Of a stretch of 25,168 bases of DNA, positions 1 to 22,014 are shown piece after piece. The notes beneath the pieces are model-generated. The model was not told the DNA's origin. It ran no database searches and saw nothing but the letters and a program-made list of their open reading frames with translations. Numbering within the stretch: position 1 is the stretch's first letter; each line of letters opens with the position of its first letter. A program made the translations under genes and the position numbers. This DNA comes from a virus, in IMG/VR virus record IMGVR_UViG_3300029268_000125, positions 1 through 25,168 of that record; one strand, 5' to 3'.

Positions 1-2015
1 TCAAGGGCCGCTAGCATGGTTGGGCGTGTTCTGAATGCCTCGCGCAGCGTGGGTAGCGCGGCCACGACTTTGGGTTTGATAACACCCCGACCGAGCCAGG
101 CGGCAAGTGAGCCGTTGCCAGCGGCGCCAGCTACGAGTGCGGGTAGATTCTTTTCCAAAAGTATGCTGCGGCTCTCGGATGGAGCGAATCGGGTCAATTC
201 GCATCCAAAAGTGGCAGGATCCGAAAGCATCACTTTGATGATGCTTTTCGCCATAGGCCCTTGGCCGCGGACTCTGGGTTCCTTGCCCGTAATCGATGCA
301 AGCAAAACGTTTGCCCATGTCTTGCTTTCGACTTTCGAGTTGAGAATGCGGATCGCCGTTTTGGTACGGGTTAGCACGCTTGTCTCGCGCAGCAGTTCGA
401 CCATTTCGCTGGGGCTTTGAATCAACCCAGTCACCTCATTCAGCACGGCCTCGCTGGCGCCTGATAGAATTTTCAGGAATGCTTTGCGGGTCTTGGCGTC
501 TGAGGACGTTTCCTTGAACGAAGCTGCCGCCCACTTCCGCGCCGCCGCTTTGTCGCTGCGGACAGCTTTAGTGACAGTGGCAAGGCCCTTCGGCTTAGCG
601 AGCAAGGATTTGAGGGAAGTATTGTTCAATACCTCGAAGAACTCGCTGGAAGCGAGAACAGCCGGTGAAGCAGCAATTTGCACGACCAGATTTCGGAATT
701 TCGCCAAGTCGCGTCGGGCCGGATGCGTGGCGTGGCCAGACACCAACCATGACCAGAATGCCGCATCCGTGGCGCCTAACCACATGCTGCGCACAGCTGC
801 CGTGGTATCACCCATCACCAAAGGCCATCGGTTCTCGAGGGCCAGAGATAACTCAGGGAGGATTTTTCGAAGTGACGGATTAGTTGCCGAATCGGACAGC
901 AAGCTCCGCAGAGCAGGTACCGACGCGCTCCTCAAGATTGGCTTGTTGGAGAGAAGCCATCGGAGCTTCTCGAAGGGATCAAGAATTGCAACGTAGGACA
1001 GAAAATGAAGGAGAGCTGGTGGCGACTCGCGCTGTGCTAACTCGCAGAAGTCGCTTTCGGCTTGGTTGCCCTGTGCTTGGTGAATCCATGGTTCACCCCA
1101 AAGCGATTTGACCCGCTTGTCAAAGCGTCCGAGCGTTTCGCGCTCCAAAAGCAGTGACTTGCTTTCTTCTTCAAGTTGCCCCGCTACGGCGCAGCGCAGT
1201 GTATCGCCAGATCTGCTTAGAAGCTTTTCGATCCGCTTTTGTTTTTCAGCGTATTCATTGGTGCCGCGGAAGTTCTCCGGTGCTTGGCTGATACGTTGCT
1301 CAAGGGAGGACTCGAGAAAAATGAAACGGTTTTCGGGTGCGTAAAGAATTGCAGCGGAGACATCGCCGCCCAAAACCCTCAGGCTGTCCTCGTCGATTCG
1401 CTTGCGCGCTGTCTCGGGGAACCATTCTCCTAGTGTCGAAATCAGATTCAACTTCTGCCATGCAGGAATGGCGAGCAGCTCGGTGATCCCTTTTGCTCCG
1501 AAGTTTTGCCACGCGTATGCAAACAGTCTTTTGACGAGTCTTGGGTCTTTTTCAACCAAGGATGCAAACTCGAAGGCCACAGCAGCTGGTCGGGGCGCCT
1601 TGTTTGTTCGCATCAGCGAACTTTCAAGAGGGCTCAGCTGAGTCGGCAGCCTACTGTTCTCGAGGTAATCAAGAAGTTCTAAAAAAGCCGTGCCTGACTG
1701 TTTCGACACACCTTGCCACTTGGCTCCCTTGCCTGCGCGCAAAACGCGCAAGGCATACAACGCGACAACTTTGGCCTCTTTCGGCGAAGTGCTCGCTAAT
1801 AATTTGTTTCGCAGGCTGTGGACTATGGAATTTCGGTCTTTGCCTACTGCGTCAGCAAATTCGACCCACGCTTCCCGATTAGCGGCGAAATACTTTGCTC
1901 GGCATGCCTTTGTGTTTTCCGAGTCTCGAAGAATGTTCTCTGCTGAGTGGCGCAAGAGATCACCCATGTTGATCTCCGCGTCCTCAGCCGACCGTGCGAT
2001 GACGCTTTGGTTCAT
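1..2015 (-). CDS. Large uncharacterised protein, 3' end beyond window; candidate retron accessory/effector
   Basis: One reading frame stays open on the minus strand for 671 codons from an ATG at 2015 to the left edge, so the gene is truncated by the window. An in-frame TAG lies upstream at 2058-2060. The ATG at 2015 has no clear ribosome site; an in-frame ATG at 1967 follows GGAG with a 6-nt gap and may be the true start. The product looks almost wholly alpha-helical, with many Leu/Ala/Lys/Glu-rich segments, like a repeat scaffold of HEAT or armadillo type. I see no Walker, nuclease or protease motif, no transmembrane segment, and no reverse-transcriptase YxDD. It starts 30 bp downstream of the putative retron RNA on the same strand, which is the effector position in some retrons (for example ncRNA-effector-RT in Eco1/Ec86). 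The function is unknown; the retron link is inferred from position only. All plus-strand frames here are shadows. Confidence 0.85.
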   Translation of the reverse strand, partial: MNQSVIARSAEDAEINMGDLLRHSAENILRDSENTKACRAKYFAANREAWVEFADAVGKDRNSIVHSLRNKLLASTSPKEAKVVALYALRVLRAGKGAKWQGVSKQSGTAFLELLDYLENSRLPTQLSPLESSLMRTNKAPRPAAVAFEFASLVEKDPRLVKRLFAYAWQNFGAKGITELLAIPAWQKLNLISTLGEWFPETARKRIDEDSLRVLGGDVSAAILYAPENRFIFLESSLEQRISQAPENFRGTNEYAEKQKRIEKLLSRSGDTLRCAVAGQLEEESKSLLLERETLGRFDKRVKSLWGEPWIHQAQGNQAESDFCELAQRESPPALLHFLSYVAILDPFEKLRWLLSNKPILRSASVPALRSLLSDSATNPSLRKILPELSLALENRWPLVMGDTTAAVRSMWLGATDAAFWSWLVSGHATHPARRDLAKFRNLVVQIAASPAVLASSEFFEVLNNTSLKSLLAKPKGLATVTKAVRSDKAAARKWAAASFKETSSDAKTRKAFLKILSGASEAVLNEVTGLIQSPSEMVELLRETSVLTRTKTAIRILNSKVESKTWANVLLASITGKEPRVRGQGPMAKSIIKVMLSDPATFGCELTRFAPSESRSILLEKNLPALVAGAAGNGSLAAWLGRGVIKPKVVAALPTLREAFRTRPTMLAAL

Positions 2016-2044: not shown

Positions 2045-2247
2045 ATGGCCCACTCGGCTAGCCACCATTGTATTGCTTACTTTCTTGCGAAAGCAGGCGC
2101 GGAAGCCGTGCGCATGCCATGAGGAGCACAGCTTGCGAGGTGATGCGAATGGCAGGAGCACGGCTTCCGCGTCGGCTTTCGCCGGACGCAACCGTCTCTG
2201 CCGCCCCGGCGAAACACCGGGATTGTCTGAGCTAACGAGTGGGCCAT
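2045..2247 (-). ncRNA. Putative retron msr-msd RNA
   Basis: Read on the minus strand, the element begins ATGGCCCACTCG (2247-2236) and ends with its exact complement (2056-2045), like the a1/a2 repeats of retron RNAs. TTAGC follows a1 directly (2235-2231), the pentamer that carries the branching guanosine in retron Eco1 (Ec86); the candidate branch G is at 2232. Next comes a 7-bp hairpin with a TTT loop (2221-2205), like the msr stem bound by retron RTs, then a small GACG/CGTC hairpin (2196-2185). The candidate msd is a long hairpin, 2171-2098: 14 perfect pairs, a short internal loop, 6 more pairs and a 28-nt loop. The sequence shows the architecture; assignment to retrons rests on known family structure. 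No RT is visible in the window. A MITE is the main alternative, but I see no target-site duplication. Confidence 0.72.
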
Positions 2248-2916: not shown

Positions 2917-3153
2917 TTATGCGTTGGCCACAGGCAGTTGGCGCCAGTCTGTTGTGTAGTCTGGGGAACGTCTGCCGCTTTTCATTTGCCATCCTTTACC
3001 CGTGCGGCTCGTCCCCTGTGACGCCCGCTTGATTACCGGACTGCGCGGCGACCCCATGCGGCGGTTGATATCGTCCACGATCTTGTCCACGGCTGTTGAT
3101 TGGCGGGGTTGCTGGTCAAAGAGGCTTGGTTGGTAGGCACCGCACGGAACCAA
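2917..3153 (-). pseudogene. umuC: C-terminal remnant of a UmuC-type Y-family DNA polymerase
   Basis: The frame encodes the typical tail of error-prone polymerase V catalytic subunits: YQPSLFD (compare the SLFD/NLFD clamp-binding segment), a helix ending in DDINRRMG, then GKGWQMKSGRRSPDYTTDW and QLPVA before the stop. In E. coli UmuC the equivalent end is WQMKRELLSPAYTTRW followed by DIPAA. Only about 75 residues remain; an in-frame stop lies upstream at 3172-3174, and the catalytic palm and fingers are absent. The only start codon is a TTG at 3153, so it is unlikely to be expressed. The break lies between about 3155 and the end of the lipoprotein gene at 3195, making this a candidate left boundary of the prophage. 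Confidence 0.72.
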
Positions 3154-3194
3154 GGGGGCAACCCCTGCGATTTATCGGAGACACCCGACAAAAG

Positions 3195-3590
3195 TTACGG
3201 TTGCTGGATAGGCATGGTATAGACCGTGGGCGTCTGGCCGCCAGTGTAAATCGGCGGGGCCGGCGGCAAGTAAAGCCCGCTGTTGCCCCCAAACTGCGAG
3301 ACGACAGTAGTGCCGCCGACTTGTGTGGCCATGGTGGTGCCGCTGCGAGGAGTTACGACGATTACAGGCTGCGGTGCGGCCGCTGGCGCCGGCGCTGGGG
3401 CGTCATTGAACACTACGGTTGACGGGGCAATGCCCATCATGTCGGTGCCGGGCTGGAATTGCGGCTTGAACGGTTGCTCTTGTCGCTGCTTGCTGGAGGC
3501 CAGTATCCTCTCGTAGAGCGGATCGGGCGTTTGACACCCCGTGGCGGCCATCACTAAAGCGGCGGCGGTTATTGTGGTCAGTAGTTTCAT
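3195..3590 (-). CDS. Small prophage lipoprotein coupled to the integrase
   Basis: The 131-residue protein starts with a lipoprotein signal peptide: Lys2, a hydrophobic stretch, and the lipobox AATGC with the lipidated Cys at 19. The mature part is rich in Pro, Gln, Ala and Gly, with little predicted structure: a Gln-rich segment near 30-45, a PAPAPAAAPQP linker and Gly/Thr/Pro-rich repeats to the end. It should be anchored in a membrane by its lipid and extend as a flexible chain. Its ATG (3590-3588) overlaps the integrase stop (TATGA), so it is translated from the integrase mRNA and likely made in the lysogen. Function is unknown; superinfection exclusion or lysogenic conversion are guesses from position. 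The longer frame to 3638 overlaps the integrase and lacks the signal peptide, so I chose the inner start. Confidence 0.72.
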   Translation of the reverse strand: MKLLTTITAAALVMAATGCQTPDPLYERILASSKQRQEQPFKPQFQPGTDMMGIAPSTVVFNDAPAPAPAAAPQPVIVVTPRSGTTMATQVGGTTVVSQFGGNSGLYLPPAPPIYTGGQTPTVYTMPIQQP

Positions 3591-8768: not shown

Positions 8769-9218
8769 ATGAAGCCTAACCTAAAACCGTATCACAACAA
8801 GCTGAAGGCGTTGTTTGCCCAGCACATACAATCGAATGTCGAGAGCAGTCGGCCCGAGGTTGAGCCGACGGTTGAGTCGCCCACCCCTGCCTCGCCCGAC
8901 CCTGTAAACTCTGGCGGCCCCGCGCCTCATTACTCTGACAAGAAGGCGCTTGCCGAGTATGTCGCCAAGCAGGCCGGCTTTGTTCCCGGCTACAAGGTCA
9001 CGGCCAAGGTTTCGCCCAAGAAGATCGAGAACAACCACTACGTCTGGATCTCTGTTCCCGGCTGGAGCGAGCTGTGCTTGATGGGCGTTAAGACGCGGGA
9101 GGAGTGGCCGGCGGGCAGTGGGCCCAAGTGTGAGTATGTCCAGGCCAACAGTGACGGCATGCTGGTATTTGACACAAAAGAACGCGGTCCTAGATGGAAG
9201 CGGAGGGGGGCACGATGA
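8769..9218 (+). CDS. Hypothetical protein before the replication initiator, 149 aa
   Basis: The 149-residue protein has a basic, helical start (MKPNLKPYHNKLKALFAQHI), a Pro/Glu/Ser-rich linker (about 25-60) and a compact C-terminal domain with beta-like strands (YKVTAKVSPKKIENNHYVWI, SELCLMGVKT, GMLVFDTKE). I recognise no family. The leader is C- and A-rich (cccacacattatcacg) with no Shine-Dalgarno sequence. Its stop overlaps the initiator start (ATGA), with a GGAGGGGGG ribosome site inside its last codons, so the two are translationally coupled and probably act together in DNA replication; that last point is inference. Confidence 0.62.
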   Translation: MKPNLKPYHNKLKALFAQHIQSNVESSRPEVEPTVESPTPASPDPVNSGGPAPHYSDKKALAEYVAKQAGFVPGYKVTAKVSPKKIENNHYVWISVPGWSELCLMGVKTREEWPAGSGPKCEYVQANSDGMLVFDTKERGPRWKRRGAR

Positions 9219-9985
9219 GCGCCGAAGCGACTAACTGGGTTTGGAAGCACAGTGAGGCGGCCGGCTCGGATCGCCTGGTTCTGTTGGCCTTGGCCGACTT
9301 CTGTAACGAGACGGCTGAGTGTTACGCCTCTTACGGCACGCTGGTTAAGAAGACCCGGCTTGGACAGAAGACCGTATACCGCTCTCTCAAATCCCTGCAA
9401 TCAGCGGGCGAGGTTGAGCAGATCAAGCAGGGTGAGTTTGGCGACGGCGGGCAGGTGGCCAACGAGTGGAAGTTGCCCAAAATCCATATTGGTCAAAATG
9501 ACCTAGTAGTCAATTTGACCAATAGGCCGGAACCTCTATTGGTCAAATTGACCAATACTATTGGTCAAAATGACCAATCAACAATACATAACAATACAGA
9601 TAATAATAGTAGCTCGCCTACGGCTCGCCCCCAAACGCCGCAGCTAACCGTAATCAAACAATCCAATTCGCCACCCTCTCTGGATTCAGAGATAAAGTTG
9701 GTCCGCAAACGAGAGGGCGTTCTCGGCAAGGGATTGACCGACGAGCAATGGCTCCGCCGGTTGGGCGAGAAGAATCCCAACATCGACATCCTCGTCCTCT
9801 TCGACCGCTGCCTCGCGTGGTGCAAGGAGAAGGGCAAGGTGGCCAGCCGCCGGCAGTTCATGGCCTTTGTCCGCAACGCCCAGAGGGACGTGCCCATGGC
9901 CCCCATTGCCCTCCCCTCCGTGCCCTCCGGGCAGTCAGCCTTTGAGCGGGAGTTGGCCGAGATTAGAAGGGCGGTGGGATCGTGA
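9215..9985 (+). CDS. Replication initiator with winged-helix domain (lambda O-like)
   Basis: The 256-residue protein begins with a winged-helix domain of HTH_36 type (about 5-75: WVWKHSEAAGSDRLVLLALA, ASYGTLVKKTRLGQKTVYRS then LKSLQSAGEVEQI), used by phage replication initiators such as O-like and DnaD-like proteins. A low-complexity linker (about 90-150, rich in Asn, Thr, Gln and Ser) is encoded by the origin iterons. The C-terminal half has helical, charged segments (DEQWLRRLGEKNPNIDILVL) likely to contact the helicase. It should bind the iterons inside its own gene and recruit the DnaB-type helicase encoded at 11036. The start at 9215 overlaps the upstream stop and has GGAGGGGGG before it; the 7-residue longer frame is less likely. 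Confidence 0.78.
   Translation: MSAEATNWVWKHSEAAGSDRLVLLALADFCNETAECYASYGTLVKKTRLGQKTVYRSLKSLQSAGEVEQIKQGEFGDGGQVANEWKLPKIHIGQNDLVVNLTNRPEPLLVKLTNTIGQNDQSTIHNNTDNNSSSPTARPQTPQLTVIKQSNSPPSLDSEIKLVRKREGVLGKGLTDEQWLRRLGEKNPNIDILVLFDRCLAWCKEKGKVASRRQFMAFVRNAQRDVPMAPIALPSVPSGQSAFERELAEIRRAVGS
9489..9612 (+). other. Phage replication origin: four palindromic iterons plus AT-rich stretch
   Basis: Within the initiator gene the palindrome TTGGTCAAAATGACCAA, or close variants, occurs four times: 9489-9503 (right end diverged), 9509-9522 (left end diverged), 9539-9555 and 9561-9577. Each has a GGTCA/TGACC core around three A/T bases. The centres are 17, 33 and 22 bp apart. An AT-rich stretch follows at once (9578-9612), a plausible unwinding element. 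Iterons followed by AT-rich DNA inside the initiator gene is the layout of lambda ori in gene O. Confidence 0.82.
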
Positions 9986-10463: not shown

Positions 10464-10715
10464 ATGAAAACCCGTAAACCCACCAAGAAAGCCGCTGCCG
10501 TGAAGCGGAAAACCATCACCCCGAAATCCCAAAACGTCGCCGATCTGCGCGCCACGATTAAGAGCTCCATAGGCACCTTGGTCGCCCTAGACCTGCTCAT
10601 CGACCGCTCGAAATCCCAAAACGTCGCCGATCTGCGCGCCACGATTAAGAGCGCCATAGGCGCCTTGGTCGCCCTAGACCTGCTCATCGACCGCTTAATT
10701 GCCGACAAGCAATGA
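10464..10715 (+). CDS. Small protein made of a recent 29-residue tandem duplication
   Basis: The 83-residue protein has a Lys/Arg/Ala-rich start (MKTRKPTKKAAAVKRKTI) and then two near-identical 29-residue units (KSQNVADLRATIKSSIGTLV... and KSQNVADLRATIKSAIGALV...), each a likely helix-helix element ending LDLLIDR. The basic head resembles histone-like tails. Family unknown. The two units differ at two DNA positions before their last codons, so the duplication is recent. Its stop overlaps the start of the next gene (ATGA). The upstream 68 bp hold no clear ribosome site. Confidence 0.6.
   Translation: MKTRKPTKKAAAVKRKTITPKSQNVADLRATIKSSIGTLVALDLLIDRSKSQNVADLRATIKSAIGALVALDLLIDRLIADKQ
10524..10697 (+). 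repeat. 87-bp in-frame tandem duplication
   Basis: Units 10524-10610 and 10611-10697 are identical except for two substitutions (t/g and a/g near the middle) and the last few bases. The period of 87 bp preserves the reading frame. Confidence 0.9.
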
Positions 10716-21003: not shown

Positions 21004-22014
21004 ATGTCCCAAGGACTTGTTCACCCCGCAGTTGGTCTTCGTGAAGACCTGGCTGACGTTATCTCGGTTGTAGACGCAAAAAACACGCCTGTAAGTTCTA
21101 TGGCGAAGAAGGGCCAAGATTTATCTAATGGCTCAGTTTTTTCGTGGCAAGCCGACAGCTACAACGACCCGTCGTTCGGCGGCGTCCTCACCAACGCCGA
21201 TGTCAGCACCTTCGCTGATCCGGCCGCTAACCGCGCCCTCCTCTCTGGCCGCGCCCAGAAGTTCCGCCGTTCCATCAAGGTCGATGACTTTGCCCAGAAC
21301 GTCGATAACATCGCCGGCGTTGGTAAGAAAAAGGAAATGGCCCGTGGCGTTTCCCGCTCGTTGGTTGAAATCGCCCGTGACTTGGAATCCGCCATTTGTT
21401 CCGACAATGACTCGCAAGAGCAGACCGGCGCAACGCCGTTCAAGACTCGCGGCCTCGGCAGTTGGGTAAACAGCGCCGCGCAAAGCGATTTGCCCGTGCC
21501 GGCCAACTTCCGCACCCCGGCCGCCAGCATCAACAACACCAACCTCGCCGCCCTCACCGAAGCCAACGTGCAGAGCATGCTCCAGTCGATCTACACGGTC
21601 ACTGGCCAGATCAGCACGATGGTCCTGGTTTGCGGACCCGAGCTGAAGCGCAAGTTCACCGAGTTCACACGCTTCGCCACCGGCGCTGACTCCGCGCAAG
21701 AGTTGTCCATCCGCACGTTCACCCAGCCTACAGAGGCCCGGAAGATCACTGCGAAGGTGGACACCTTTGAAGGTGACTTCGGCACAATTAGCCTGTTGCC
21801 ATCACTGTTCAACGCGAAGGACCAGAACGAAGCCACCCAGCTTCGCCGTGGCTACCTGCTGGACCCGAACATGATCGAGTTGCGTTACGGCCGTCGCCCC
21901 CGCTTCCAAGAGCTGGAAGACCAAGGCGGCGGACCTCGCGGCCTCATCGACGCCATCTGCGCGCTCGTTTGCTGGAATCCGAAGTCCCTCGGTAAGTTCC
22001 ACGCGACTTCCTAG
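21004..22014 (+). CDS. Major capsid protein, SU10/DUF5309-type
   Basis: The 336-residue protein follows the SU10-type (DUF5309) capsid pattern: an N-terminal DLADVISVVDAKNTPVSSMA, then a NGSVFSWQADSY strand, RRSIKVDDFAQNVD, an E-loop or spine helix (SRSLVEIARDLESAI), a central QTGATPFKTRGLGSW segment and a C-terminal strand block (GTISLLPSLFN, YLLDPNMIELRYGR). It forms the HK97-fold shell. The gene sits between scaffold and decoration genes, as expected. Confidence 0.82.
   Translation: MSQGLVHPAVGLREDLADVISVVDAKNTPVSSMAKKGQDLSNGSVFSWQADSYNDPSFGGVLTNADVSTFADPAANRALLSGRAQKFRRSIKVDDFAQNVDNIAGVGKKKEMARGVSRSLVEIARDLESAICSDNDSQEQTGATPFKTRGLGSWVNSAAQSDLPVPANFRTPAASINNTNLAALTEANVQSMLQSIYTVTGQISTMVLVCGPELKRKFTEFTRFATGADSAQELSIRTFTQPTEARKITAKVDTFEGDFGTISLLPSLFNAKDQNEATQLRRGYLLDPNMIELRYGRRPRFQELEDQGGGPRGLIDAICALVCWNPKSLGKFHATS

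Follow-up and report, generated by a model that had tools for sequence, protein, structure and literature searches.

Retrons are bacterial anti-phage systems that make DNA from RNA, and to our knowledge their RNAs are normally found only via the associated reverse transcriptase (RT). The question raised by this locus is whether a retron RNA can be recognized from raw sequence without its RT. The window (the whole 25,168-base IMG/VR virus record) contains a 203 nt element on the minus strand at 2247-2045, which a first-pass annotation had described as a retron-like msr-msd RNA. This description was strongly supported when 154 independent loci with retron RTs were used for comparison. The element's hairpin class ranked first in that comparison, and its combination of hairpin and end repeats was otherwise confined to loci of retron RTs, which makes it very probable that the element is a retron msr-msd RNA.

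Parts and folding of the RNA element

From 5′ to 3′, the element consists of a 12 nt repeat, TTAGC, an 8 nt linker, a UUU-loop hairpin, a 4 bp hairpin, a long hairpin, a 30 nt tail, and a second 12 nt repeat, all on the minus strand. The end repeats a1 (ATGGCCCACTCG, 2236-2247) and a2 (CGAGTGGGCCAT, 2045-2056) form a perfect 12 bp inverted repeat, as the first-pass annotation had claimed, and TTAGC was indeed located directly 3′ of a1 (2231-2235). Through its pairing with a GCTAG close to a2, TTAGC lengthens the end duplex by 6 pairs (one bulge), and its G2232 is the presumed 2′-5′ branch point. Retron RNAs carry a1/a2 repeats and a priming G, and binding by the Eco1 RT requires an 8 bp stem with a 3-base loop (PMC6868368, PMC8989520). 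In the window, the putative RT-binding stem is the msr hairpin TCCCGGTG-TTT-CGCCGGGG (2204-2222), the sole G-TTT-C hairpin present; it had been reported earlier with 7 bp, whereas the stem contains 8. The minor msr hairpin GACG-GTTG-CGTC (2185-2196), also noted in the earlier reading, appeared once the msr hairpin was enforced in folding.

The long msd hairpin (2087-2182), detected both as an inverted repeat and in the fold, is the putative cDNA template. Its arms (2087-2129 and 2140-2182) are 43 nt each and 81% complementary. The 14 bp and 6 bp stems described previously were present, but the hairpin was larger than stated, with an extra outer stem of 8 bp (GCGAAAGC/GCTTTCGC). Judging from this size, the branched msDNA would be approximately 100-130 nt long, exceeding the 70-90 nt predicted at first. 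The 3′ end of the msd (2057-2086), delimited from the fold, contains the GCTAG that pairs with TTAGC, and by analogy with Eco1 the cDNA presumably starts near 2061-2063.

The folding energy of the element was -108.9 kcal/mol, compared with -76.4 ± 4.3 kcal/mol for dinucleotide shuffles (z = -7.5), and none of 200 shuffles was equally stable. Among all 203 nt stretches on both strands of the window, the element ranked second lowest in GC-corrected energy. The minimum free energy structure did not contain the UUU hairpin, as a competing pairing (UUUCGCC with GGCGAAA) took over, and this counts against the retron explanation; the fold with every element of the first-pass annotation was 2.4 kcal/mol above this minimum. 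The probability of the UUU hairpin in the isolated RNA was approximately 10%, and a retron control (locus L185) behaved alike at 18%. No Rfam family scored above its gathering score, the only hit being a chance match to mir-935 (E = 0.066; score 27 bits, cut-off 73). A sigma-70-like promoter was sought upstream of the RNA and none was found, which counts against the retron explanation.

A length of approximately 200 bp with 12 bp terminal inverted repeats would also suit a MITE or another non-autonomous palindromic insertion. The test that the first-pass annotation had set for such an element went against it, since the window contained neither a second copy nor a flanking or target-site duplication. 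Furthermore, a 21-base piece of the element had no exact match in viral contigs, and comparison with plasmids and phages gave short partial matches only, none longer than 53 bp. An insertion of this kind is thus highly improbable. Searches of viral contigs with RNA patterns returned either nothing or nine chance matches devoid of end repeats. A homologous RNA from which covariation could be read was not found in the collections searched, which also counts against the retron explanation.

A hairpin and end-repeat signature at retron RT loci

Retron RTs were gathered from phages, plasmids, and three viral-contig scans, yielding the 154 distinct loci. Eco1 (Ec86) served as the positive control; its sequence was verified against E. 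coli genomes and fetched together with its RT. Every hairpin with a 3 nt loop and a stem of 8 bp or more was sorted by loop and closing pair, giving 96 classes, and hairpins were counted as near an RT when they were located no more than 1.5 kb upstream of it (229 kb near versus 3,966 kb elsewhere). G-TTT-C was the class most enriched upstream of RTs (17 near, 17 elsewhere; p = 3e-13), although the choice of the UUU loop was prompted by the finding, so that the p-values describe the loci and are not a blind test. The second-ranked class was G-CTT-C. YG-NTT-CG hairpins of at least 8 bp occurred 30 times near retron RTs and 19 times elsewhere. When end repeats of 11 bp or longer around the hairpin were required in addition, 14 places were left, all of them at retron RT loci: 13 were near the RT, and the one elsewhere was itself at an RT locus (L290). 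This combination occurred once in the window, and was found neither in 1,851 kb of other, unrelated phage loci nor in any of 300 shuffled windows. The definition of the signature was refined once the window hairpin was known; its enrichment, however, was determined on loci independent of the window, and no hairpin class was left out of the ranking.

These counts bear on the idea that the element is an intergenic structure that arose by chance in GC-rich DNA. A GC content of 62% and the frequency of signature-class hairpins alone, approximately 0.1 per shuffled window, would allow for such an origin, but the stability of the fold relative to the 200 shuffles and the absence of hairpin plus end repeats from all 300 shuffled windows leave it barely credible.

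The descriptor applied to the window also recovered Eco1, which was the only other match in 1.9 million strand-bases. Enrichment was also seen with a simpler descriptor (end repeats plus TAGC), which was nevertheless insensitive on viral retrons. At loci L208, L315, L297, and L185, the parts were arranged in the same order as in the window RNA, and TTAG at a1 was common to the window RNA, Eco1 (L115), and L156. The gap between a2 and the next gene was 29 or 77 nt in the window, 82 nt in Eco1, and 27 nt in each of the Bacteroides and Priestia controls. As a separate observation, two or three signature hairpins were located upstream of one RT at the viral retron loci L208, L178, and L187, suggesting tandem msr-msd copies.

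Alternatively, the end repeats and hairpin might serve some other purpose in a structured leader that belongs to a different defence or RT system, such as a DRT-type RT with an ncRNA of its own or a toxin-antitoxin system with a structured RNA. The neighboring gene belongs to no known family and no RT was seen, so that no protein names the system, as this alternative would allow. However, end repeats together with TTAG at a1 and a YG-NTT-CG stem were specific to retron RT loci in our test, and no Rfam family matched; a leader of this sort is therefore very unlikely. The anatomy of the element, its strand, and its match to a signature confined to RT loci are the established part of the retron explanation. 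A UUU-loop hairpin of the G-NUU-C kind flanked by end repeats of 11 bp or more is specific enough to support this reading and could find retrons that lack an RT or lie at contig edges.

Genomic setting and candidate partner gene

Similarity to related phages begins at approximately 3153-3204, placing the prophage start at approximately 3160, inside umuC. The C-terminal end of UmuC (DUF4113; 78 codons, 2917-3153) adjoins the start of phage homology. Because it lies to the left of that homology, the phage was inserted in umuC and the retron region is host DNA; the retron stretch was absent from the related-phage records searched. umuC is an SOS polymerase gene, and prophage integration there is possibly noteworthy in itself. 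The phage integrase (3587-4738) is followed by DnaB helicase, terminase, capsid, and other phage genes. Within a replication-initiation ORF (9194-9985), a cluster of palindromic ATTGGTCAAAATGACCAAT-type repeats (9486-9579) resembles a lambda-O-like phage origin, and a tandem duplication of two 87 bp copies with 97% matches is located at 10522-10695. The major head protein (21004-22014) had more than 100 relatives in IMG/VR contigs, and a single alignment-based scan of 84,980 bacterial and archaeal genomes returned none.

The truncated N-terminal piece of a second tyrosine integrase (2552-2860) is located between umuC and the RNA. It is weakly similar to the phage's own enzyme (36% over 44 aa) and suggests that insertions had occurred at this site before. 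Neither an RT nor a fragment of one was detected in the window, including the 23 kb to the right of the element, which counts against the retron explanation; the record ends at position 1. A true msr-msd whose RT was lost by rearrangement at a umuC integration hotspot would account for this absence, and the truncated integrase and displaced umuC end would then reflect repeated insertion and loss at the site. Such a remnant is nevertheless unlikely, as the parts of the RNA are all intact, including the perfect a1/a2 repeats and a stable msd stem, and the side on which the RT usually lies is beyond the sequenced end.

The sole candidate partner in the window is a large ORF (3-1967, minus strand) encoding at least 655 aa. 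It is open at the left edge, where its C-terminus is cut off, and its candidacy is based on its position downstream of the RNA on the same strand. Its start is likelier the ATG at 1967, which is preceded by GGAG, than the ATG at 2015 (671 aa). The third-codon GC of this ORF was 0.59, compared with 0.74-0.86 in the phage genes measured. The protein matched no PADLOC, Pfam, NCBIfam, or PHROG model and had no significant match in the PDB, and no relatives of the 671 aa form were found in viral contigs, genome contigs, plasmids, or phages. A 13-bit match to L192, obtained when the initial set of RT loci was searched with the protein by tblastn and phmmer, was taken as chance. AlphaFold models built without relatives were all-helical and weak (pLDDT 45 for the 655 aa and 63 for a 201 aa part). 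The best PDB matches of the 201 aa part were helical solenoids (CLASP TOG, PP2A B56, and importin), with Z scores of up to 6.3, too low for a fold to be named. The protein also matched none of the PADLOC-DB effector or accessory proteins of the retron types covered, and it may not be the effector.

Taken together, it is highly likely that the element serves as msr-msd template RNA for a retron located in the host chromosome beside the left end of the prophage, and that it is transcribed leftwards with the downstream gene for the large, predicted helical protein and most probably also with a retron RT past the window edge. By analogy with known retrons, in which the RT binds, primes on, and copies the RNA and the RT-msDNA complex restrains a toxic partner (PMC6868368, PMC8989520, PMC12548924), the RT would bind the UUU-loop hairpin, prime on the 2′-OH of G2232, and copy the long hairpin into msDNA. 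As in tripartite retron defence systems, the RT-msDNA complex may then keep the helical protein, as the effector or its scaffold, inactive until phage infection. A more tentative proposal, which we regard as a minority possibility, is that the locus is a retron of an undescribed type in which a helical-solenoid protein of at least 655 aa, encoded between the RNA and the RT, is the effector or effector scaffold. A gene of at least 2 kb between a signature RNA and an RT was present at none of the 154 RT loci, which counts against the retron explanation. Should the large helical protein prove to be the partner, it would represent an effector for which no relative has been described.

Comparison with known retrons

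Retron type XIII comprises helical-repeat and SWIM proteins. The window system would resemble this type in joining a large helical-repeat protein to a retron RNA. Membership in type XIII is unsupported, as the window protein matched no PADLOC model.

L297 belongs to the Ec67 family, its RT matching the solved Ec67 protein. Its RNA resembles the window RNA in that a short linker separates a1 from the first hairpin, which contains the identical 9-mer GTGTTTCGC, and the msd and a2 come after this hairpin. The L297 RNA is shorter (130 nt), however, its RT follows directly, and its a1 ends in GGCA-G rather than the TTA-G of the window RNA.

Eco1 (Ec86, type II-A) differs in two respects. In Eco1, a first msr stem precedes the UUU hairpin, whereas in the window RNA the UUU hairpin comes first, after the short linker. 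In addition, the Eco1 RT directly follows its RNA and the effector is located upstream, whereas the window RNA precedes a large gene of no known family. The two RNAs nonetheless share 12 bp a1/a2 repeats, TTAG ending a1, a long msd hairpin, an 8 bp UUU-loop stem with an identical TG-TTT-CG tip, and a gene shortly after a2.
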